38,890 bases of DNA from Candidatus Woesearchaeota archaeon (GTDB taxonomy: Archaea; Nanobdellota; Nanobdellia; Woesearchaeales; GW2011-AR4), in NCBI GenBank assembly GCA_016177615.1, contig JACOUX010000034.1:1-38890 (forward strand). The letters are read 5' to 3'. The notes beneath the pieces were generated by a model, which had not been told where the DNA came from, did not search any database, and saw only the letters and a program-made list of their open reading frames with translations. The translations under genes and the position numbers were made by a program. Every line of letters begins with the position of its first letter. Position 1 is the stretch's first letter. Shown here piece by piece: positions 14,046-25,565 of the stretch.

Positions 14046-14447
14046 ATGAATTCAATCAATTTAGAAAAAACTGCTTCTGCCCATACAAGACCAGTAACCA
14101 GGATTCAGCTCACGATTCCGAATATCGGATCCCTGGATGACTTGAAAAACTATCCGATAGGGGCATGGGTAAATGTAGCTCCCAGAGAGAGCGTAAATCC
14201 TGAGCCAATGATATTTGCGGGGAAGGATTTGCTGGACAACTATGGCCAATTTTATTTCATCAAGCCTGAAGGAAAAAGCTATACGGTTTATTTTGCACCA
14301 GGGAGCCTAATTGATTTTCCCGGCTATGTAAGCTTTAGGCTCTTTCAGAGCTTTGATCGGTCGGTTGAGCCAAATACTGAAGATTACACGAAAACTAAAA
14401 AGGTTTCTGAGCAGACGCCATTACTGAAGGCGCAGAGGATTAACTAG
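14046..14447 (+). CDS. Hypothetical protein
   Basis: ATG-initiated ORF, no recognised domain. Confidence 0.4.
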   Translation: MNSINLEKTASAHTRPVTRIQLTIPNIGSLDDLKNYPIGAWVNVAPRESVNPEPMIFAGKDLLDNYGQFYFIKPEGKSYTVYFAPGSLIDFPGYVSFRLFQSFDRSVEPNTEDYTKTKKVSEQTPLLKAQRIN

Positions 14448-14622
14448 TAGGATAAATCTTTGTCTCGTCGTCGACAGGTTTTCATCTGCCCCAATACTGA
14501 TTTGTAAGCTGATAAAACTTTCAAGCAATCCCAATAGTTGGCAAAGAATCCTGGCAAATAATACAGGCCCATCATCAAAAACAACAACTTTTTTAAAGAA
14601 TTATCTTTACTGTGTTCTTTAT

Positions 14623-14788
14623 GCGGAGGTGCCGGAGCGGTCAAACGGGATAGTGGACAATAATCCCTTTTTATGTCTGTCCAAGCTTAGGTTGACCATG
14701 GCAGTAGAAGGTGTAATGAGCATCTTGCTATGATTAAATGACACCTATTGGCTTAGTGCCTACGCAGGTTCGAATCCTGTCCTCCGCA
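14623..14788 (+). tRNA. tRNA-Leu, inferred anticodon TAG, two introns (14654-14684 and about 14692-14742)
   Basis: Acceptor GCGGAGG/CCTCCGC, A73, D-arm CCG..CGG, class II variable arm GGCTTAGTGCC, T-arm GCAGGTTCGAATCCTGT. Removing both introns gives anticodon arm ATAGG-CTTAGG(A/T)-CCTAT. Confidence 0.85.
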
Positions 14789-14860
14789 TTCATACTTTTT
14801 GTGATTTGAAGCGAAACATTTAAATAGTCTTTGACTTCTTAGGTATCTTGTGATGTAAAA

Positions 14861-16039
14861 GTGTCTCTAAAAGTTCATAACGAGGGAATAATAGATCCTC
14901 ATGGCAATAAGAAGAAATATGAAAATTGGGTTAAAGATGGAAGGCTTTTTAGTTATGTTAGCGGGCAAAATAGAGAACTAATATCCAGGTTTATGCAAGA
15001 CATGGAATCTGGCTATAACATCAATCTTCAAAAAAAAGGTGGCAGAAGCTATTCAAGGCTAAATGCTTTAAGGGTTAGACTGCCGCAAATTGCTGGTTTC
15101 TTTCAAACTAAATATAAAAAAGAATTGTCTAAATTGACGCCAAAAGAAGTTGTTTCTTTATTCAATGAGATGGAAAAGGGTAAGCTGAAAAAGAAAGATG
15201 GAAATTCATACAAGAGCTGGAAGGATTACGTTAAGGATTTTAAGAGTTTCTGGCATTGGTATATGAGATATATGAAAAGAGAAAAGCAAACTTTAATTGA
15301 AGATATAACAGAAGAATTGGATGGCACAAGCATAAAGAAAAGAGATTTTGTTTATGTTACCCATGAAGAACTCAAAAAGTTAGCGGATAATGCAAAATTT
15401 GAATATAAAGTTTTGCTTTGGTTTCTGTTTGATTCCGGAGTGAGAGCTCCGCAAGAAGCGGCAAACATTAAAGTTTCTGATATAACAGACGCTGGCGAAA
15501 AGGAGCCTTTGATGTTGGATGTAAGGGATGAAATTTCAAAAACATTCGGCAGAAAAATAAAATTGATGCTAAGCTCAAACTTGATAAGAAGGTATATTAA
15601 AGAGAATAATTTGGCAAAAAATGATTTTTTGTTTAGAATTTCTCCGAGAGTAAAAAACCAGTATATTAAGAGGCTTGGCGAAGTCGTGTTGAAGAAAAAG
15701 GGATTAACAATGTACGATTTTAGGCACGCCTCAGCCTGCTATTGGCTGCCAAGATATAAAACCCAGTCTGCATTAATGTACAGGTTCGGATGGAAAAATC
15801 CTGAGATGATTGAATATTACAGCCAATTCTTAGGGATGAAAGACAGCATTACTTCAGATGACTTGGAAGACTCAGAAACCAGAACTGAATTGCAGAAAGC
15901 TGTGGAGCAAGAAAGAAATCAGAGGCAGATAATGGAAGAAAGGATGAACTCAATGCAGCAGGAAATGGAGACATGGAAGCATGAAATAACCAAGATCATT
16001 GCTGCCGATTTAAAGAAAAAATTGAAGATAACAGCTTGA
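14861..16039 (+). CDS. int: Tyrosine recombinase/integrase
   Basis: DSGVRAPQEAANI (catalytic Arg box), YDFRHASACYWL, GWKNPEMIEYYSQFLG (catalytic Tyr region); C-terminal coiled coil. Confidence 0.88.
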   Translation: MSLKVHNEGIIDPHGNKKKYENWVKDGRLFSYVSGQNRELISRFMQDMESGYNINLQKKGGRSYSRLNALRVRLPQIAGFFQTKYKKELSKLTPKEVVSLFNEMEKGKLKKKDGNSYKSWKDYVKDFKSFWHWYMRYMKREKQTLIEDITEELDGTSIKKRDFVYVTHEELKKLADNAKFEYKVLLWFLFDSGVRAPQEAANIKVSDITDAGEKEPLMLDVRDEISKTFGRKIKLMLSSNLIRRYIKENNLAKNDFLFRISPRVKNQYIKRLGEVVLKKKGLTMYDFRHASACYWLPRYKTQSALMYRFGWKNPEMIEYYSQFLGMKDSITSDDLEDSETRTELQKAVEQERNQRQIMEERMNSMQQEMETWKHEITKIIAADLKKKLKITA

Positions 16040-16066
16040 TTAAACCTATTTTTTCTACAATTAAAA

Positions 16067-16279
16067 TTATTTTGTCTTGCGAGAAGGTGAGTGGATGTAG
16101 GAATATAACATGACCAAACCAATAGAAATTAACAATACAATTAACGCAAGCATAAAAGAATTGAATACAACACTAAAAATAATCAAAAAAAAGGATATGA
16201 ATATTATCATCAAAAATGAGCCTAAACTTAATTTCATTCCCTCTTTAACAGATAATTCTCTATCTTTGTCCATAGTCAT
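16067..16279 (-). CDS. Small membrane protein
   Basis: Two hydrophobic helices in a 70-aa ORF. Confidence 0.5.
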   Translation of the reverse strand: MTMDKDRELSVKEGMKLSLGSFLMIIFISFFLIIFSVVFNSFMLALIVLLISIGLVMLYSYIHSPSRKTK

Positions 16280-16293
16280 AATTGTATAAATTG

Positions 16294-16521
16294 TTATTTA
16301 AGAAATTTTCCACCTTTATCTGTGAAACTTCCAGTCAATATCATAATAATATCAATAATAATTCCAATACCAGCTACGCCTACCGTAAAAAAATAAATTA
16401 TTCCAGTGCCAACTTTACCTACATAGAACCTGTGCACCCCTAACCAACCTAAAAAAATTGCTAAAACTAAAGCAATCCATTTGTTTTTTACACTAACTTC
16501 CTTATGATATTTTTCAGCCAT
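16294..16521 (-). CDS. TM2-domain protein
   Basis: KNKWIALVLAIFLGWLGVHRFYVGKVGTGIIYFFT..GIGIIIDIIMILTG. Confidence 0.88.
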   Translation of the reverse strand: MAEKYHKEVSVKNKWIALVLAIFLGWLGVHRFYVGKVGTGIIYFFTVGVAGIGIIIDIIMILTGSFTDKGGKFLK

Positions 16522-16551
16522 AATTCCACTCCTAAATATTTTTACTTATCT

Positions 16552-17616
16552 TTAACACAAACCCTTAGTAAAATCTAACAATTCTGAAGTTCCTGAAGTC
16601 CACATATAAATTTCCATACAAGCACTTTTTAGCTCTAATTCTATTCCAAGAATGCCATCAGAACATTCTTTAGCTCTTTTGTAACAGCTATTTAGAGCTT
16701 CTTGTTTAGATGTTTCTCCACTCTGCGTCTCAGGGCTTTGTCCCACTAAATCATCTATCAGTTGATCTACTTCGCTTTGTTCGGTCATACAGCAAACTTG
16801 TCCTGAAGGGCAGTCCTTTTGACCTACATCAGAGTATTTAGCGCAGTTGGACGAACATTTGAAAGGTGAATTACATTTATTCATTAACTCTTTTACTTTA
16901 GCTTTGCTTTCTTCCATTGCTTCATCTATAACTTGGTCTACTTTTTCTTTCTGAGTTGTATCTATGCCTATATTTTTTATGTTAGATAAGGCTACTTTAA
17001 CTTCTTTGGTAGAAACCCAATCTCCCCTTATAATTAAATTTAAATTTTCTGATTCTTTTGGCAATTCAAAAACAACAGCTCCAGAAACTGTTAAAGAAGG
17101 CTGAAGTTGTTTGCCAAATTCTAAATAATCAGCAATATAAAAAATATCATCAGAAAGTCTATCAAATTGTCTTTCTTGATTATCAATTACTTTAAATCTT
17201 GGGGTAAATATTTCTTTAGTTTCTTTTGCAGTATTTGTTATATCAAGATAAACCTTTATGAATTTACCATTGGTTTTTTTGTCAGAAAAAGATGTCCCCA
17301 TTTCTGTGAATGTCTCTGCTTTTATTACTTTGTAAGTTAAATAATCAACATTTATATCTTCATTCATAGAATAAATCTTTTCCTTTACTTCTTGTTTTTG
17401 TGGGATTTGTGTTTTAATTTCATCCTCTTTTTGAGATTTTTGTTCAACTTCCTTACCCACATTTCCAGTTATTGCATTAATTTCAGATGTTTTTTGTGCA
17501 GGTTCAGTTTTTGCTTCAGTATTTGTTGGTATTTCTGCTATGCGCTCTGTGCATCCAATTATTAGAAAAATAGAGATTATTGAAATAAACGTATATACAA
17601 CGTTTGATTTCTTCAT
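16552..17616 (-). CDS. Lipoprotein with DUF4352-like domain and Cys-rich C-terminus
   Basis: Signal with lipobox LIIGC; YKVIKAETFTEMGTSFSDKKTNGKFIKVYLDITNTAKETKEI like DUF4352; CSPFKCSSNCAKYSD..CPSGQVCC. Confidence 0.75.
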   Translation of the reverse strand: MKKSNVVYTFISIISIFLIIGCTERIAEIPTNTEAKTEPAQKTSEINAITGNVGKEVEQKSQKEDEIKTQIPQKQEVKEKIYSMNEDINVDYLTYKVIKAETFTEMGTSFSDKKTNGKFIKVYLDITNTAKETKEIFTPRFKVIDNQERQFDRLSDDIFYIADYLEFGKQLQPSLTVSGAVVFELPKESENLNLIIRGDWVSTKEVKVALSNIKNIGIDTTQKEKVDQVIDEAMEESKAKVKELMNKCNSPFKCSSNCAKYSDVGQKDCPSGQVCCMTEQSEVDQLIDDLVGQSPETQSGETSKQEALNSCYKRAKECSDGILGIELELKSACMEIYMWTSGTSELLDFTKGLC

Positions 17617-17618
17617 CT

Positions 17619-17954
17619 TTAATCACTCTTTTTTATAACAGCCATTAAGCCAGCTATTATAAGGAGTATAAAAGACAAAGAATAGGCAAAACTTATAGAG
17701 ATTACTCCTCCAACTGCACTCACAATCATAAGCCATCCGCCCAATTTAGTTTTGCTTTTTACTAATGAAGCACCAACAATGCCCAGAATCGAAAATAAAA
17801 TTGCAACCCAGCCTAAATTTACAACCATTGACGCACTTTTAGCACCAAAAGCCCCAGCCAACCCTCCAACCATCAAAGCGAAAATTGCACCAAAAAATCC
17901 GAATATACCTCCAATTAATCCTAAAACAAATTCAACTGTTCTTTTTCCCATCAA
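17619..17954 (-). CDS. DUF4064-like membrane protein
   Basis: RTVEFVLGLIGGIFGFFGAIFALMVGG...WVAILFSILGIVGASLV. Confidence 0.65.
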   Translation of the reverse strand: MMGKRTVEFVLGLIGGIFGFFGAIFALMVGGLAGAFGAKSASMVVNLGWVAILFSILGIVGASLVKSKTKLGGWLMIVSAVGGVISISFAYSLSFILLIIAGLMAVIKKSD

Positions 17955-18015
17955 AACACCCCAAATTTACCTATATTTGAAAGTCCTATTTAAATAAATT
18001 TCGCTTATCTTTATG

Positions 18016-18058
18016 TTACGCTGATTATCACGCTTTCTTTTATTCTGATTATTACGCT
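18016..18058. repeat. Tandem TGATTATYACGCT direct repeats in divergent promoter (candidate operators)
   Basis: TGATTATCACGCT 18022-18034 and TGATTATTACGCT 18046-18058, 24 bp apart, plus TTACGCT at 18016. Confidence 0.65.
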
Positions 18059-18066
18059 ATGGTTTT

Positions 18067-18321
18067 ATGAATGACGAAATAAGGATATTCTTAGCAAGAA
18101 GTAAATTAAGAGCCAAGATTTTGCAAGAGTTAGAAGATAAGCCCCAGATAGCATCATTTTTGGCAAAGAAAATCAAAAAACATAGAGAAGTTATAAGCAG
18201 AATATTTTTGGATTTACAGAGAAGAAAGTTAGCTGTCTGTACAAATCCGAAAGCTCCGAGCTTCAGATATTATAAAATAACAGAGAAAGGCAAAAAGGTG
18301 CTTAAAGAGTTGAGAAATTGA
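18067..18321 (+). CDS. Winged-helix transcriptional regulator
   Basis: LRAKILQELEDKPQIASFLAKKIKKHREVISRIFLDLQRRKLAVCTNPKAPSFRYYKITEKGKKVLKEL. Confidence 0.82.
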   Translation: MNDEIRIFLARSKLRAKILQELEDKPQIASFLAKKIKKHREVISRIFLDLQRRKLAVCTNPKAPSFRYYKITEKGKKVLKELRN

Positions 18322-18334
18322 ATTTTCAAAATCT

Positions 18335-18348
18335 GACAAAATTTTGTC
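18335..18348. promoter_or_regulatory. Perfect 14-bp palindrome GACAAAATTTTGTC
   Basis: Between wHTH stop and the TATA box of the candidate ncRNA. Confidence 0.6.
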
Positions 18349-18392
18349 GAATACGGCAAGGCGACTTTATATAAGCCAAAAAGTTGACCTCT

Positions 18393-18960
18393 ACCCCCCT
18401 TTACTGAAGACATAAGAGAATAAACAAAACTGAGCACAAGCTAATGCAAAACGCGCACTATTGCTATACTTTAAGTTTGCAGGAGCTTTCCTCAGAACTG
18501 CCGGAGATAAAGCCATGTGGCTTGTTGTGATTATTTTAACCCACGCCTCTAAAATAGTTGGAAATTGGAATAGATACTCGTATCGTTATGACAATTTCCA
18601 ACACCACTTTAAAGTGGCATAGGCTTGTTTTTTGTTTCAGACTGAAAGGCTGGGGGTTTGTTAAAAGTCGGAGTTTCTGCCTTGCAGATACCGATTTTAA
18701 GCGACTTTGGAGCGGACAAGCCCCTCAAAAAACAAGCCTCAATAGAAAGGAGGCTTGAGAATGGGGAAAGACGTCAAAGGTTGAGGCGGTTGTGATTGAA
18801 ATGAGGAGCGGATTAGTGACGAGTTTTTAATCACGTTCGCCTTTGCTTTGACTGAATTTCAACCGCAACCAGCGCAAATCGATTTAAGTGCAGATTGTTT
18901 GGAACGTGTGAAGAATGAACTCGTGAGAAATTCGGAAAGCCTCTTTGTTGGGCGGGATTA
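18393..18960 (+). ncRNA. Candidate large structured ncRNA (about 0.5-0.57 kb)
   Basis: TATA box tttatata 18366-18373; many perfect stems, e.g. 18557-18567/18592-18602 (11 bp), 18622-18634/18726-18738 (13 bp), 18664-18670/18702-18708 (7 bp), 18788-18802/18856-18870 (14 of 15). Ends approximate. Confidence 0.72.
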
Positions 18961-19122
18961 AATAAAAAAAATGAGCTGTCAAATAAACGTCACCCATAAA
19001 AACATGAGCTGTTAAGTTAGAATGGTATAAATTTATTTTTAAGGTATGTTTTTTGAAACTGTTAAGTTTATGTTTGATAAGGGATTTAACATTATTGATT
19101 TTCATATGTAAAAATGTTGGTT

Positions 19123-19947
19123 TTATTCAGAACTTTTAATAAAATTATTTAAACCCACTTTATATTTATTCTCCCACATTTTAACTTCATTTTCATCCAT
19201 GTTTTTAATTATTCCCTTAAATTCATTTGTTGATTCAAATTCTATTAAATATTCTGTAAGACAATCCTTTAATTTATTGCATTTAGAACATAAAAATTTC
19301 AATTTTTCAAAATTATCTTCATAGGTATATGAAGTAGTGATAGGCTGTACTGGTAAATCAACTTCAATAAATGAAAAATTAAGTTTTTTATTTATTACTT
19401 CATCTAATAAATCCAATTCAATTTCATAACCTTCAGATGTAAGACTGATCTCCTTTCCATTAGAATCTAATTTTCCATACCTAAATGCCCATAAACCACA
19501 TTGTCCATCTGGTATTTTATTAGGATAATTATGATATCTCATTAATGAGAACACTTCAAATCTTTCAATTAAATATCTAAAGGAGTCTATGGCTTTATGT
19601 TTGATTCTATGTGCCATAACACAAGACAGGTTAGAATCTGAAATTAATTCTTGAAATATTTCTGATATGTAACTATAAGGAATTTTTCCAGAACCATCAC
19701 AAATAATCACAAAATTAGGAGGTTGGGGCATATTGTTTAGTGCGTCTAATATCATTCTGCCTTTTGGAGAAATTTCCTTAGATTGATTCGTTGCAACATA
19801 TGAATAATCTAAACCTGGAAATCTAACATCAATATGGTTAGCACCTAAAATTGTCAAATCTTTATGTATCTTATTACTTAATTCAAGAGTAATATCTGGT
19901 ATCTTCTTCTCATAGTTTCTTATGGGAAAGAGAAGAGCAATCCTCAT
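19123..19947 (-). CDS. GT-A (family 2-like) glycosyltransferase-like protein
   Basis: VIICDGSGKIPYSYI, MAHRIKHKAIDSFRYLIERFEVFSLM, IPDGQCGLWAFR, TSEGYEIELDLLDEVINKKLNFSFIEVDLPVQPITTSY. Confidence 0.6.
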   Translation of the reverse strand: MRIALLFPIRNYEKKIPDITLELSNKIHKDLTILGANHIDVRFPGLDYSYVATNQSKEISPKGRMILDALNNMPQPPNFVIICDGSGKIPYSYISEIFQELISDSNLSCVMAHRIKHKAIDSFRYLIERFEVFSLMRYHNYPNKIPDGQCGLWAFRYGKLDSNGKEISLTSEGYEIELDLLDEVINKKLNFSFIEVDLPVQPITTSYTYEDNFEKLKFLCSKCNKLKDCLTEYLIEFESTNEFKGIIKNMDENEVKMWENKYKVGLNNFIKSSE

Positions 19948-19959
19948 TTAAATCCTCAA

Positions 19960-20217
19960 CTATTTTGGAGAAGCAGCAATTGTAAATTTGTGTATATCAT
20001 TCAGAGGACCATTAACGGTTATATATGAATCTTTAACCAAAAGCAGATTATTTGCAGGATTGGTCCCTTTTAGTCTATTATCATTTGGGTCAATATACAT
20101 ATATTTAACAAACCTCAAATTAGGATATGCATTTCGTAAATCACCAATGGTTTTAAATTTTGAAAGCACATCGCAAGATTCCCTCAATGGCATTTCTAAA
20201 CTTATATTTTCAGACAT
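19960..20217 (-). CDS. Hypothetical 85-aa protein
   Basis: ORF directly upstream of the GT-like gene, same strand. Confidence 0.5.
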   Translation of the reverse strand: MSENISLEMPLRESCDVLSKFKTIGDLRNAYPNLRFVKYMYIDPNDNRLKGTNPANNLLLVKDSYITVNGPLNDIHKFTIAASPK

Positions 20218-20463
20218 TTGATTCCGACCTCTTTTTTAAATATAGATAAAACTAAATGGTTTATCTCGATAAATAAACTAGATGTTGGAGTTTATTTTTA
20301 TTTGTGTACTGGAGTATATAAGTGAGATATTTTCCATATTAACAATAATTATTTTATAATAACTTATATATAAAGATTTCGTTTTTTGACAAGAAAAAAT
20401 TTATAAATATATTTTTTGAAGAATAGGTGACGTTTAGTTGACAGCTTAAAAAAAGAATAAAAT

Positions 20464-20493
20464 AAATGGCTGTTTATTCAACAGCCATTTCAT
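20464..20493 (-). terminator. Hairpin terminator overlapping the 20474 gene end
   Basis: Perfect ATGGCTGTT-(5 nt)-AACAGCCAT stem followed on the minus strand by TTTATTTTATTC. Confidence 0.55.
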
Positions 20494-20866
20494 TCTCGAG
20501 TTCGCCGAGAATGTTGTAAAGTCGCTTCACAGCTGACTTAAAGCCCTTGGCTTTTGAGTCATTTCGACTCAAATCAGGCGGGGAGTTGGAATAAACCAAC
20601 TTCGCGCTCAAGCCAAGCCGAACTCCATCGATCTGCTTGTGAAGCTTACCGATGTATGTGCCTGCGTCTTTGAACTCAGGCTCATGCTCTTCTTCCTGAA
20701 GAGCTCGGTTTTTGGCTTCAGCCAAGCCAGCATTTATTACTTCGCTGGCTTCTCTTTTTGTGAGGTTTTCGAAATCAACCTCACCATCTACAAAACCCCT
20801 TTTCTGAAGGTTTTGTATAAACCTTAGCTGCTTTTCAGTTGCAGCTATATATTCTTGTGTTTGCAT
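20474..20866 (-). CDS. Hypothetical element-encoded protein with ATxKQLxFIxxL N-terminal motif
   Basis: IAATEKQLRFIQNLQKRGFVDGE..LTKREASEVI, as seen in phage/plasmid proteins. Confidence 0.5.
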   Translation of the reverse strand: MQTQEYIAATEKQLRFIQNLQKRGFVDGEVDFENLTKREASEVINAGLAEAKNRALQEEEHEPEFKDAGTYIGKLHKQIDGVRLGLSAKLVYSNSPPDLSRNDSKAKGFKSAVKRLYNILGELENEMAVE

Positions 20867-20884
20867 TTTGCAAACCTCAGCTTA

Positions 20885-21216
20885 GGGGAAGGTAACCTTC
20901 CTTACAGCTATTGATTTGCTGTGGGCATCCACGCCCAGAGTGGACATTCAGCTTGGCTGACAATCTGCGGGAAACCGATTTTCAGAATGGAAATTGGCGC
21001 TGGATACAACGGAGATTATAAGAGAAAACCGAAGAGGTTGTCTTTTATTTCGTTGGGTTTTAACCCGACTCAACCCTGAGTATCAAAACAAAGGCGGTTT
21101 GCCCGTTGTTCGAATTGAACAGCCTTTCCAACAAGAATAATAGAACTTGGAAAGGGAAATATTTTTGTTTGTTGGTGAATGAACCATAAGAACAAAAAAT
21201 CTTTCGGCAAACCGCC
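20885..21216. ncRNA. Second candidate structured RNA region (strand uncertain)
   Basis: Nested perfect stems: GGCGGTTTGCC 21093-21103/21206-21216 (11 bp), CCTTTCCAA 21123-21131/21147-21155, TTTTTGTT 21162-21169/21191-21198, GTTGGGTT/AACCCGAC 21052-21069, CGG-GAAA-CCG near 20968. Confidence 0.6.
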
Positions 21217-21252
21217 GACAAGTATAAAAAGAGGTTCTATTAAATTAATGGT

Positions 21253-21429
21253 ATGAACCAGCAAGGCAATCCAAATATTTCTGAAGAATCTCGCAAGTGG
21301 AGAGAAAGGACTCCTGATTGGCAAGATGTATTAGCTAAAATCTCTAAGGAACGTTCAACAGGTCCAAGAACAGACTTTGGAAAATTTAGGACTTCTTTAA
21401 ATGCTCTAAAAATTGAACAAATAGTTTGA
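21253..21429 (+). CDS. Small 58-aa protein (not in ORF track)
   Basis: MNQQGNPNISEESRKWRERTPDWQDVLAKISKERSTGPRTDFGKFRTSLNALKIEQIV*; TATA box tataaaaa at 21223, 30 bp upstream (leaderless spacing). Confidence 0.55.
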   Translation: MNQQGNPNISEESRKWRERTPDWQDVLAKISKERSTGPRTDFGKFRTSLNALKIEQIV

Positions 21430-21649
21430 TTTAGGCTTAATTTTTAAGTAGTGAAAACTTAAAATACATTTTTGTGGCTACGCCACTTAGTTATTTGATA
21501 TTTATTTCTCTTGCTCTACCCCTGAGATTTGCCAATTCTATACAATGGATTTTGTATGAAATCCCAAAATGTCTGGCTTAGAGCAAGAACTATGCATATA
21601 TGTTTTAGTTTTGATTGTTTTATTTCTCTTGCTCTTGCCTAAAGATTTG

Positions 21650-23578
21650 TTAGTTTTGTACAACTTCAACAACCTCTTTAATCGATTCTTGTATGCGATA
21701 ATAACTTCCATCCCTATAGACTAATCCCAATTCGCATAATCCTTCAATTTGGAACACAGGATTGTTGCAATCTAAATCTTGAACATGATTTACTTGTATT
21801 TTATTGCCATTTTGTTGCATTATTTCTAAGATATACCTCTGAGATTGGGTTAAAAGCTGTTTCTTTGCCATCTCATCTAATTCCTGCTTTTTGACATCAA
21901 TCCAATTTCTGAGCATTGTTCCCCACATAAGCTCTAAAAGCCGGTAATCTTCCTCTTTTGCTGCAAAGCTTGGATCAGGCTCGCATAAACATCTTGTCTT
22001 GATTAGCCCATCTATTAAGCAATTTATATGGTGTTTGTACCTTGCTGTATAAACATCCCTTACTTTTTCCGGCAAAATGTCTGTTTCTGTGTATCTGTTA
22101 TAGACTTCATTCACGTTTTCATTGTCATAAGAGGCCCTGAAGGTCTGCATATAATCATAAATTGACAGCCATTTGTCTTTGTCTATTTTCAGCTTAGTTT
22201 CTTCTTTACCTTCCCCTTTTTCTATAAATTTAATGTGCTTTTTATCCAGGTACCATACCAATAATCTTGACAAAAAAGGATTGTCTATTCTTTCGCATAG
22301 CTCGGGCATTGTTTTAGTGCCATATATATCATTGCTTACAGCCAATAGCTTTGATTTCATTGAGCCTACTAAGCTGCAATTCCCCGAGCCAAATTCCCTG
22401 ACAGAATGCTCTAATAAAGGGTTTAATGCGCCTAATTGTGGCTCTCTATCCTCTTTTGGAATTCTGCATAATATCCTAAGAAACTCATCAACGCAACAAA
22501 CTCTATTAGATTTTATCAATGCTCCCTGCTCAGCCTGGATATTCTTAAAGCTTGGAATCAAGACTTTTAGTGTGCTGCCGGAGCCATCTACTATGTCCTG
22601 GGTTTCGTCCATCTTTTCATGGATTGCTTCTATCCTGAAAGTTTTGCCGGCTCCTTGTCTTGCAATATCGAGCCTGTGCAGTGAATAAGGCTTGTCTCCA
22701 TACTTTGCGCTAAACAGAAATGCAGCATCAAGCTCTTCAAAATAAGAAGGATGCCTGTAGCTATTTCCGTCTGTTCGGCTATAGATAAAGCTAAACAGCT
22801 TATCTTTTGTCAAACTCATATTTTTAACATCTTTAAACAATTCATCATGGTTTTGGTATTTTATGATTCTTGGCTTGGCTTTATTGACAAAAATCAAAGG
22901 CAATTTTAACGATATTTTTGTGTGATGGCCTATGTCCCCTAAATCATCATTTTCTATAAGTATTCCTTCTATAAAATATTCTTCAGAGCTTAATTCTTCT
23001 TCAGAAAAAATAAGATATTTCTTTCTGTTGTAAATCAACTCATAAATAAAGAAATGACCGCATATTTCATCAATTATGCGCCAATGCCTGTAATCTGCCC
23101 TGTCGCCAATAAAGAAAATTTCAAACTCTTCTATGCCTTGTTTGTTTGTCCTTTTTCCTATTTTAAGTAATGATATATTTTCTTTATGCTTGTATTTAGT
23201 GTTTAGTATCTTACCCTTTATTGTTATAGATTTACTTATGATGAATGCTGCTTTTTGGTGTGTTTCATAGATATTCTTTATTGCTTTTTTGATATTTTCA
23301 TAAGGAAGAAGGCTATTTGAATAATAAATGCCATCAGATTCTAAAATATCCGGCATGACTTCTTTGAAATCATCTAATATATCCCCTTTGCCAATTAAGG
23401 CATCGTTAGTTATCTTAGAGAGATTGTCTTCAGGTTCAGATTTAGATTCAAATTTTAGAATTTCCATTTGTTTTTTGTATTCTTCAGGATCATGATTTTT
23501 TAAATCCATTAACTGATTGTATCTTTCTGTATCGGTTTTACCCAGCAATTTCATTATTTCATGTTCTTCGTATGTCAT
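21650..23578 (-). CDS. MCM-like AAA+ ATPase, putative replicative helicase of the element
   Basis: Walker A RQGAGKTFRIE; Walker B GALIKSNRVCCVDEFLRI (cf. MCM GxxCIDEF); sensor-1-like SKLLAVSND; Arg-finger-like NPFLSRLLVW; C-terminal wHTH-like region. Confidence 0.65.
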   Translation of the reverse strand: MTYEEHEIMKLLGKTDTERYNQLMDLKNHDPEEYKKQMEILKFESKSEPEDNLSKITNDALIGKGDILDDFKEVMPDILESDGIYYSNSLLPYENIKKAIKNIYETHQKAAFIISKSITIKGKILNTKYKHKENISLLKIGKRTNKQGIEEFEIFFIGDRADYRHWRIIDEICGHFFIYELIYNRKKYLIFSEEELSSEEYFIEGILIENDDLGDIGHHTKISLKLPLIFVNKAKPRIIKYQNHDELFKDVKNMSLTKDKLFSFIYSRTDGNSYRHPSYFEELDAAFLFSAKYGDKPYSLHRLDIARQGAGKTFRIEAIHEKMDETQDIVDGSGSTLKVLIPSFKNIQAEQGALIKSNRVCCVDEFLRILCRIPKEDREPQLGALNPLLEHSVREFGSGNCSLVGSMKSKLLAVSNDIYGTKTMPELCERIDNPFLSRLLVWYLDKKHIKFIEKGEGKEETKLKIDKDKWLSIYDYMQTFRASYDNENVNEVYNRYTETDILPEKVRDVYTARYKHHINCLIDGLIKTRCLCEPDPSFAAKEEDYRLLELMWGTMLRNWIDVKKQELDEMAKKQLLTQSQRYILEIMQQNGNKIQVNHVQDLDCNNPVFQIEGLCELGLVYRDGSYYRIQESIKEVVEVVQN

Positions 23579-23772
23579 TTCAATACCTCTACTCTTCTTA
23601 TATCAATTAACCGTAAGGCTTCTGTATTTCCATTCCTTTTGAGAATAAGATGGGTGTCTGTAATGCCTTCCAGAATTCCGTCTTTATGCTTTGGAATAGG
23701 GCTTGGCTTGTCTTCTATTATAACTCTTACATTCTTATTAAGAAATCCTTTCCAGTGTTCCAGTTGTTCCAT
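23575..23772 (-). CDS. Small LSm/SH3-like protein
   Basis: FLNKNVRVIIEDKPSPIPKHKDGILEGITDTHLILKRNGNTEALRLIDIRRVEVLK; 4-bp overlap with helicase start. Confidence 0.5.
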   Translation of the reverse strand: MEQLEHWKGFLNKNVRVIIEDKPSPIPKHKDGILEGITDTHLILKRNGNTEALRLIDIRRVEVLK

Positions 23773-23783
23773 TTTGTTGTTTT

Positions 23784-24509
23784 TTATCTACGTGCTAAAG
23801 ACCCCAATTCTCGTGCCCAGGTGTCATTCAAGAATGCTTTAATTTTATCTGCAATTTCCCTGGCGTCTAAGCCTGTGCCAGTTATGTAAATATTTGGGGA
23901 TGAGAAATTAATTGTCTGGCTTTCGCCTGCTGGGATCACAGATTCGCCTCGATGCAAATAGGCTAATGTATCCCTCGGCACAAAAGAGGTTCCCATCTGG
24001 AAGCTTGGAAAATTAGAAGACTTTATTCGGCTGAAAGATTCCTCAAACTTTGTGAACATCTCCTGAAAGCCTTCTTTCAGCATTAAAATAAGTCCTTTGA
24101 AGCCATCTGCCAGGGGCGTAAATACCCATTGCTTCAGCAGATTCATGGCAGGGCCCGTAAAGGGCGACAGATTTCGTAATTCTGACAACCCATATGATAA
24201 ATTTTTAAGCCTGTCCCTTACGTCTTCAAATGCAACATTTCCAAAATTTGATTTGATCGCATCTCCAAAGAGTAAGAAGTTCGATGCTAACGATTCTCCG
24301 AAGTTTCCGTAAAGATTGTTGAATTTTCCGATTCTACTGGTTATTTGTCCCATTCCCTGAGCAAAAGAATGAGCGGCTTGGGAAGCCTTTTGTTTAAATT
24401 CTTCTCGAAAAAATTTCATAGTTTCAGCTGCTTGCCGAAAACTATCCTGCAGTTTTGTCGTGTCGCTTCCTATTACAATCTGAATATCTTCAATCGGAAT
24501 TTTGACCAC
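23784..24509 (-). CDS. Phage tail tape-measure-like protein (short)
   Basis: C-terminal GTSFVPRDTLAYLHRGESVIPAGESQTINFSSPNIYITG, typical of tape-measure C-termini; helical N-terminal region. Confidence 0.6.
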   Translation of the reverse strand: MVKIPIEDIQIVIGSDTTKLQDSFRQAAETMKFFREEFKQKASQAAHSFAQGMGQITSRIGKFNNLYGNFGESLASNFLLFGDAIKSNFGNVAFEDVRDRLKNLSYGLSELRNLSPFTGPAMNLLKQWVFTPLADGFKGLILMLKEGFQEMFTKFEESFSRIKSSNFPSFQMGTSFVPRDTLAYLHRGESVIPAGESQTINFSSPNIYITGTGLDAREIADKIKAFLNDTWARELGSLARR

Positions 24510-24624
24510 CTTTTGGACTTACGCCAATGCACTGAAGTATGCACTTTTGCTGTTCTTCAAGCTCATTCCAATTTTTTAATAAGAATGATTCAAGTTCCTC
24601 ATCAGATTCATTTAATTGTTGCAT
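24490..24624 (-). CDS. Small 44-aa acidic protein (not in ORF track)
   Basis: MQQLNESDEELESFLLKNWNELEEQQKCILQCIGVSPKGGQNSD*; overlaps both neighbours, operon-like. Confidence 0.45.
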   Translation of the reverse strand: MQQLNESDEELESFLLKNWNELEEQQKCILQCIGVSPKGGQNSD

Positions 24625-24754
24625 TTTCTCTTTTCAATATTTGGATTGCACCTTGCCGAAAAATTGAAGAAATTTTCAAATCACATCTTCTGGCATGTCT
24701 CCTAATTTGATCATACATATCTTCTGGAACGCTAATCGAAATCTTCTTGAACAT
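24608..24754 (-). CDS. Ribbon-helix-helix (CopG/Arc-like) protein (not in ORF track)
   Basis: MFKKISISVPEDMYDQIRRHARRCDLKISSIFRQGAIQILKRENATIK*. Confidence 0.75.
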   Translation of the reverse strand: MFKKISISVPEDMYDQIRRHARRCDLKISSIFRQGAIQILKRENATIK

Positions 24755-24812
24755 TATGGAATTCTCCATACCCCGAAATATTTATAATCTTAGGCTTGTT
24801 TTACACACTACA

Positions 24813-25478
24813 ATGGTTTTTTTAAAGAACGAAAGAGGGAATTATTCTATCTGTAAAAGTAAGAGAATTAAGAGAAATGGTAAAAGTCCTTCAAGGCCAA
24901 TAGTACTCCAAAAACTTGGCAGGTATAGGTACTGGAAAGCTGAGGATATAGTCGAAGACTTCATGAGGGAATATCCAAATGAGATAAAAAATAAAAAACA
25001 ATATTTAAAATTATTTAATGACATTGAGGCGATTCCATGGTATAAAGATAATCCGAAATTTCAGGGCAGCAAGGATGAAAAATTGCATAATGAAATAACC
25101 AAAAACAAGATTTTTACTCAATATTTATTTAATACCATAAAGAGCAGTCAATACAGAGCATTATATCATCAAGATAAAGCTAAAGGGTATTCAGAAGATA
25201 TTGCAAGCTTAAATTTGGAAAAGGTAAAGGAATATTCTCTCAGAAATAAAAGGATCGGGACATTGGTGGGAAGGACTATCAGAACTACTGATGATACAAA
25301 GAAGTATACGGGATACAATCAAATCAGACTTCCTCCTGGATATGCTAAGTTTATTGAAAGATTCAGAAATAAGAAAAAGTGGCTTACTGAAGAAGAAAAG
25401 CAAAGACTTATAAGGAATATCTCAAAAGAAATCAAGAAGCATGGGCATCTTAATAAACACCCGGCATTATACTTATAA
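24813..25478 (+). CDS. Hypothetical basic protein of the element
   Basis: ATG at 24813 with TATA-like aatatttataat about 35 bp upstream; ORF track extends the start to 24747. Confidence 0.5.
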   Translation: MVFLKNERGNYSICKSKRIKRNGKSPSRPIVLQKLGRYRYWKAEDIVEDFMREYPNEIKNKKQYLKLFNDIEAIPWYKDNPKFQGSKDEKLHNEITKNKIFTQYLFNTIKSSQYRALYHQDKAKGYSEDIASLNLEKVKEYSLRNKRIGTLVGRTIRTTDDTKKYTGYNQIRLPPGYAKFIERFRNKKKWLTEEEKQRLIRNISKEIKKHGHLNKHPALYL

Positions 25479-25503
25479 TCTATAAGTGGTTTAAACTCCG
25501 ATG

Positions 25504-25565
25504 TAGTTTCACAAGCAATCACACAAATATATACTTCCTGTCCTCCGCATGTTTTAGTTTCACAA
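25504..25565. repeat. 11-bp direct repeat TAGTTTCACAA flanking the attR core
   Basis: 25504-25514 and 25555-25565, either side of 25536-25550. Confidence 0.6.

Follow-up and report, generated by a model that had tools for sequence, protein, structure and literature searches.

Does an integrated element of a DPANN archaeon encode a large structured RNA, and if so, where does that RNA begin and end? The large structured RNAs so far described from mobile elements come mostly from bacteria and bacterial phages; a structured element RNA in DPANN archaea, if true, would widen this class. The locus lies in a 38,890-nt stretch of Woesearchaeota DNA, called the window throughout, in which an initial annotation had marked 18393–18960 as a highly structured RNA encoded by an element.

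Folding of block A exceeds chance

The marked region, hereafter block A (18393–18970, 578 nt), folds on the + strand with a dG of −177.7 kcal/mol at z −5.1 against 60 dinucleotide shuffles, and on the reverse strand with −150.5 kcal/mol at z −3.8. The shuffled-control check proposed for about 18380–18980 thus favours the region on both strands, and other window lengths and seeds give MFE z values of −3.8 (601 nt) and −5.4 (576 nt). Random 576-nt windows from this genome, 110 in all, have a mean z of −0.36 (sd 1.3), and a single one (1/110) lies below −3.6. This sole window (L032, z −6.6) holds a different palindromic repeat, a strong element at 14080–14250 of that host-genome locus between genes for an ABC-transporter ATPase and a PadR-like regulator, which looks like an insertion-sequence-derived repeat. 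Block A also has two perfect helices that reach 10 bp or more within 110 nt, one of them 14 bp long; two or more such helices arise in 1 of 200 dinucleotide shuffles and 14 bp is reached in none of the 200. Taken together, the excess over shuffles, the excess over genome windows and the long helices indicate that the structure of block A is real and beyond chance.

The description of this ~0.57 kb as lacking a convincing ORF holds, with a longest stop-to-stop frame of 66 aa and no family match for the three frames in PHROGs. The TATA box placed at 18366 is present as the TATA-like TTTATATA (18366–18373, +), 20–27 nt before the plausible start of block A (~18393) and the 5′ arm of a possible closing stem. 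Archaeal TATA-to-start spacing fits a predicted start at about 18393, from which block A would be transcribed rightward. The sequence directly after block A holds no T-rich terminator.

Helical architecture of block A

The complementary arms listed in the initial annotation all exist in the sequence, and those given with coordinates are correctly placed. The helices of block A are as follows.

18532–18538/18550–18556, + strand: TATTTTA/TAAAATA, read in the sequence
18557–18567/18592–18602, + strand: 11-bp hairpin GTTGGAAATTG/CAATTTCCAAC with inner stem GATACTCGTATC at 18573–18584, pair probability 1.00
18604–18617, + strand: CCACTTTAAAGTGG with stem CCACT/AGTGG, pair probability about 0.8 or more
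18621–18739, + strand: core, a 14-bp stem around 10-bp and 8-bp stems and TCTGC/GCAGA, probabilities 0.95–0.99
18622–18634/18726–18738, + strand: GGCTTGTTTTTTG/CAAAAAACAAGCC, 14 bp counting the flanking A-T
18653/18716, + strand: GGGGTTTGT/ACAAGCCCC, read in the sequence
18676–18688, + strand: TCTGC-CTT-GCAGA, read in the sequence
18773–18852, + strand: long hairpin GTCAAAG-GAGGCGG-TGTGATTGAA/TTTAATCACG-TCGCCTT-CTTTGAC, probabilities 0.82–0.98
18788–18802/18856–18870, + strand: GGTTGTGATTGAAAT/ATTTCAACCGCAACC, arms present in the sequence

The 14-bp stem of the core spans 91 nt, a nested and long-range arrangement. Two of the listed pairings are not the favoured ones: the arms AAAGTCG/CGACTTT exist, but the MFE structure instead pairs AAAGUCGG (18664–18671) with CCGAUUUU (18691–18698), and the outer stem 18788–18802/18856–18870 is displaced by the hairpin 18773–18800/18826–18852 (−31.4 versus −39.7 kcal/mol locally). 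In addition to the helices listed earlier, CTGAG/AAGCT/TGCAA pairs with TTGCA/AGCTT/CTCAG in a three-part hairpin at 18430–18495 (+, probabilities 0.83–0.87), and CCCCCC (18394–18399) may close the ends with GGGCGGG (18950–18956) at a pair probability of ~0.65, a stem that is lost once the flanks are included in the fold. G-U pairs are depleted on the + strand of block A (8% versus 15% in shuffles).

The Rfam scan proposed as a further check matched no family, neither at the gathering cut-off over the whole window nor, microRNA noise excepted, at E ≤ 5 over 18300–19120.

The element that carries the locus

Block A lies within an integrated element of 10.76 kb (14775–25550), inserted at the 3′ end of a tRNA gene.

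14775–14789, + strand: attL core TCCTGTCCTCCGCAT, the 3′ end of an intron-containing tRNA gene (14622–14789)
14861–16039, + strand: tyrosine integrase of the element (PF00589 E 1.4e-6; phrog_1 integrase E 3.9e-21)
18067–18321, + strand: small winged-helix regulator-like protein directly upstream of block A (HVO_A0261_N E 4.3e-7, below the Pfam gathering score)
21650–23578, − strand: AAA+ ATPase with Walker A (GxGxGKT-like) and DE motifs
25536–25550, + strand: attR core TCCTGTCCTCCGCAT, an exact 15-bp repeat of attL, with 0 expected by chance

The default ARAGORN scan misses the tRNA gene; with introns allowed it reports a tRNA ending at 14789, called Val(gac) with a doubtful anticodon. Further element proteins include one DUF4352 and one DUF4064 protein. 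Judged by its motifs, the AAA+ ATPase is probably the replication helicase of the element; no Rep or relaxase is recognised among the element proteins by Pfam, PHROGs or NCBIfam. Six other genomes of the order encode homologues of the ATPase (31–41% identity), as do GTDB records titled Woesearchaeota and one IMG/VR contig; the elements that carry them (L019–L024, L056–L061) are without A, B, C (the latter two defined below) or the other element proteins.

Several observations concern the surroundings of the ATPase gene. At and just past its 3′ end lies a 45-nt direct repeat (21501–21545/21619–21663, 78% identical, 118 nt apart), and a weak tape-measure-protein match at 23784–24509 (phrog_25966, E 3.6e-4) is the sole virus-structural hint in the element. 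Four related Woesearchaeota elements carry a long hairpin of ~100–150 nt just upstream of the AAA+ gene (L021 9400–9510; L022 12840–12990, −; L023 8390–8500; L020 7680–7860), with z down to −8.8, and in L021 and L022 this leader sits between the AAA+ gene and a conserved gene of 159–161 aa. The leader is a candidate conserved regulatory RNA and, with several homologues at hand, covariation could be tested there.

Structure resumes beyond an insertion

The structure does not end at 18960, as had been assumed; hairpins resume at 20450–21220, past an insertion. Block A stops at 18971 because the insertion starts at 18972.

18972–20448, no strand assigned: low-GC, AT-rich insertion with IS6/IS240-type ends
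20450–20880, − strand: block B, with a 130-aa gene (ORF 20474–20866)
20881–21220, no strand assigned: block C, upstream of the 130-aa gene, closed by GGCGGTTTGCC (21093–21103)/GGCAAACCGCC (21206–21216)

The ends of the insertion are 24-nt inverted repeats (18974–18997/20423–20446) of 92% identity. The same repeat in the same outward arrangement flanks an insertion sequence with a transposase on another contig of the genome (C27, 1984–4633, L052), and 18972–19004 is identical to the right end of that copy (33/33). The C27 transposase is of IS6/IS240 type (PF13610, E 3e-8; NF033587, E 4.5e-20, below the curated cut-off). In the window, the cargo is a glycosyltransferase-like ORF with a weak AglJ match (19123–19947, −) and an 85-aa ORF (19960–20217, −), without a transposase. 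With a glycosyltransferase-like gene in place of the transposase, the window copy appears to be a passenger or non-autonomous derivative. A-rich flanks on either side fit a short target duplication, though they are too simple to serve as proof, and the first IS end is abutted at 19004 by another, diverged one. The insertion site falls exactly between block A and the terminator of block B, and 18972–19500 inside the insertion folds at z +1.0/+1.3.

The abutment of block A on IS ends at 18972 also fits a decayed gene or transposon-end relic whose structure would derive from old insertion-sequence ends. We regard this as very improbable: block A resembles the C27 copy in nothing beyond the ends, its tested frames have no protein relatives, the same genome holds no second copy of block A, and Rfam returned no match.

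Hairpins fill the 130-aa gene of block B

No other part of the window, block A included, gives as strong a structure signal as block B. It folds at dG −175.0/−165.2, with z −8.5 (−)/−11.3 (+) against dinucleotide shuffles. When codons of the 130-aa gene are shuffled synonymously, its sense strand gives z −11.2, while 16 other window genes, in a comparison computed on shorter gene stretches, range from −2.3 to +1.3; the lowest value for 247 ORF pieces from related loci is −5.5. As such, neither the protein nor codon usage accounts for the structure of block B. Of the 30 perfect hairpins in the window whose stems reach at least 7 bp, nine begin within the 412 nt at 20464–20875, against at most 4 such stems in any 412-nt stretch over 241 kb of the same genome. 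These hairpins are short, local and all different, and G-U pairs, at 2–4% versus 11–13% in shuffles, are rare on both strands.

The gene itself looks real: its protein matches phrog_12286 (E 4.4e-5), a model folded without an alignment has a helical N-terminal domain (pLDDT 77–85; the remainder is of low confidence), and a terminator scan places a terminator-like 11-bp hairpin with a T-rich tail (20464–20490) at its 3′ end. Block B is the sharper surprise of the locus, a gene whose synonymous codon choice folds the message far beyond the other genes examined. Such folding might stabilise the RNA, shield it from nucleases or from RNA-targeting defence, serve packaging, or matter as DNA hairpins.

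The dominance of perfect Watson–Crick stems, with G-U rare on both strands of block B and hairpins that are short, local and all different, is also what template switching at quasi-palindromes would leave if element replication had perfected the hairpins without selection. Were this so, block B would be a clean record, left in nature, of the errors by which replication of an archaeal element makes palindromes. Such an origin seems improbable, given that the hairpins are limited to two blocks of one element while the adjoining insertion and genes show nothing of the kind, and that the nested long-range stems of block A (14 bp over 91 nt) are unlike the simple hairpins of template switching.

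Strand preference and the level of action

Block C folds at z −7.2 (+) and −5.1 (−) against dinucleotide shuffles. Across the three blocks the dinucleotide z is better on the + strand, whereas the synonymous z favours the − strand in block B. Joined without the insertion, A+B+C folds at −484.8 (+) versus −461.2 (−). The + strand preference would suit one giant RNA of ~1.35 kb that existed before the insertion, with the 130-aa ORF antisense or incidental. Pairing between A and B/C is, however, no better than chance (the longest joining helix is 10 bp, as in shuffles), so that a single giant RNA is possible and not required. The − strand ORF argues further against it, with its phrog_12286 match, its fairly confidently modelled N-terminus and, on the same strand as the ORF, a stem resembling a terminator, as does the synonymous z; a giant + strand RNA is accordingly a poor candidate.

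Structure on both strands (A −5.1/−3.8, B −11.3/−8.5, C −7.2/−5.1) raises the separate question of whether RNA is involved at all. The inverted repeats of A, B and C could act in DNA, as cruciforms or single-strand hairpins of an origin, packaging or strand-transfer region, with no special RNA. The blocks adjoin the AAA+ replication ATPase, G-U pairs fall below shuffles in A and B, and the hairpins extend across a coding gene, which is what one would expect were DNA the level that matters. On the other hand, A and C are clearly lower in energy on one strand, the element has no recognised Rep or relaxase, the hairpin arms are not repeated sites, and known plasmid origins are far smaller than 1.3 kb of hairpins. 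A purely DNA-level role is unlikely on this balance, though it deserves serious weight.

Relatives of the blocks

The proposed nucleotide search for relatives of block A returned none. Across 359 genomes of the order the matches are at noise level (20–46 nt), and those at E ≤ 0.01 per genome occur in 9 of the 359, its own included, which is about the chance expectation. A 215-genome phylum sample and phages yield no match, and plasmids one chance match. A single-sequence covariance model (R1) of the core (18621–18739), run on 292 genomes of the order, hits nothing but the core; on sequences of related loci its sole matches are the core and the reverse strand of the core. DNA patterns searched in IMG/VR recover seven contigs with a common 23–26-nt stretch and little else of note. 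Similarly, no relatives of the 130-aa protein turned up in the order, in phages or plasmids, in IMG/VR or in the phylum sample. Genome G145 has a weak phrog_12286 match, which was set aside because it looks like another small protein, one that lacks unusual structure.

A proposed convergent model of the locus

The explanation that we favour is a pair of convergent units. Block A would be a structured non-coding RNA gene of the element, ~565 nt long and read rightward from the TATA-like box at 18366, whose RNA would form a multi-stem scaffold held by 10–14-bp helices. A leftward C–B unit would converge on it, its mRNA encoding the 130-aa protein while itself forming a chain of hairpins and ending in the intrinsic-terminator-like stem at 20464–20490. 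The two units may once have stood tail to tail until the insertion bounded by IS ends landed in the 3′–3′ gap. Together, the two units would most likely provide stable, nuclease-resistant element RNA that aids maintenance or copy control of the element.

Several results point this way. Block A reads as an RNA gene because it beats both shuffles and genome windows without a credible ORF, because the TATA-like box precedes a possible closing-stem arm at a suitable distance, and because its + strand folds better than its − strand, with core helices at 0.95–1.0. The two-unit arrangement is suggested by the position of the insertion, precisely in the gap from A to the terminator of B, and a role in maintenance or copy control by the place of the two units between a small regulator and the AAA+ replication ATPase. 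Of the initial proposal of a highly structured, element-encoded RNA, the structured, non-coding and mobile-element parts stand; transcription and its strand, action at the RNA level, the maintenance role, and the function and mechanism of A, B and C are what we infer from the sequence.

Other results count against the favoured explanation. Since the searches above brought up no homologue of any of the three blocks, covariation lends it no support. Significant structure on both strands and the depletion of G-U pairs in A and B fit a DNA-level cause too; the scarcity of G-U suits either a very stable RNA or inverted repeats acting in DNA. The closing stem is moderately probable and disappears with the flanks, and no T-rich terminator follows block A. 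The favoured strand of block C is opposite to the 130-aa gene. Taken whole, the convergent model is tentative, falling a little short of an even chance. A bolder reading, in which the ~1.35-kb hyper-structured locus sets an ornate non-coding RNA facing a hairpin-chain gene as a dual protein-and-structure RNA system outside known families, serving element maintenance or packaging, is possible yet doubtful.

Comparison with known systems

Block A adjoins insertion-sequence ends as hairpin DNA, as palindromic small mobile repeats and IS605-derived elements do, but unlike these it is unrepeated in the genome. Neither IS605 nor TnpB nor IscB appears among the element ORFs (Pfam, PHROGs, NCBIfam) or in the frames of block A (PHROGs). 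An IS605/TnpB omega RNA was considered for block A and rejected, as these scans revealed no adjoining TnpB or IscB gene or remnant. The stretch at 18972–20448 shares its ends with IS6/IS240-type insertion sequences, the transposase-bearing form being that on C27, and differs from them in holding a glycosyltransferase-like gene instead of a transposase.

The initial annotation had likened the RNA to GOLLD and ROOL, large RNAs of bacterial phages and prophages that often lie near tRNA genes and form nanocages (PMC12286853). The likeness stands in style and setting, block A being a long multi-stem non-coding RNA candidate on an integrated element near a tRNA gene, and fails at the level of Rfam models, where block A matches neither GOLLD nor ROOL nor OLE (gathering cut-off, whole window; E ≤ 5, 18300–19120). 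Unlike these bacterial RNAs, block A has an archaeal host and a hairpin-coded gene as its neighbour, and is known from sequence alone; where GOLLD and ROOL form oligomeric cages (PMC12286853), it is a predicted fold without a conserved core.

Block B finds its nearest counterpart in genome-scale ordered RNA structure (GORS), which PMC7642675 and PMC3695492 describe for positive-strand RNA virus genomes. As with the GORS of persistent RNA viruses, the coding sequence of block B is structured beyond codon and composition controls. In contrast to GORS as set out there, block B is a single 0.4-kb gene of an archaeal DNA element, built of short perfect hairpins.
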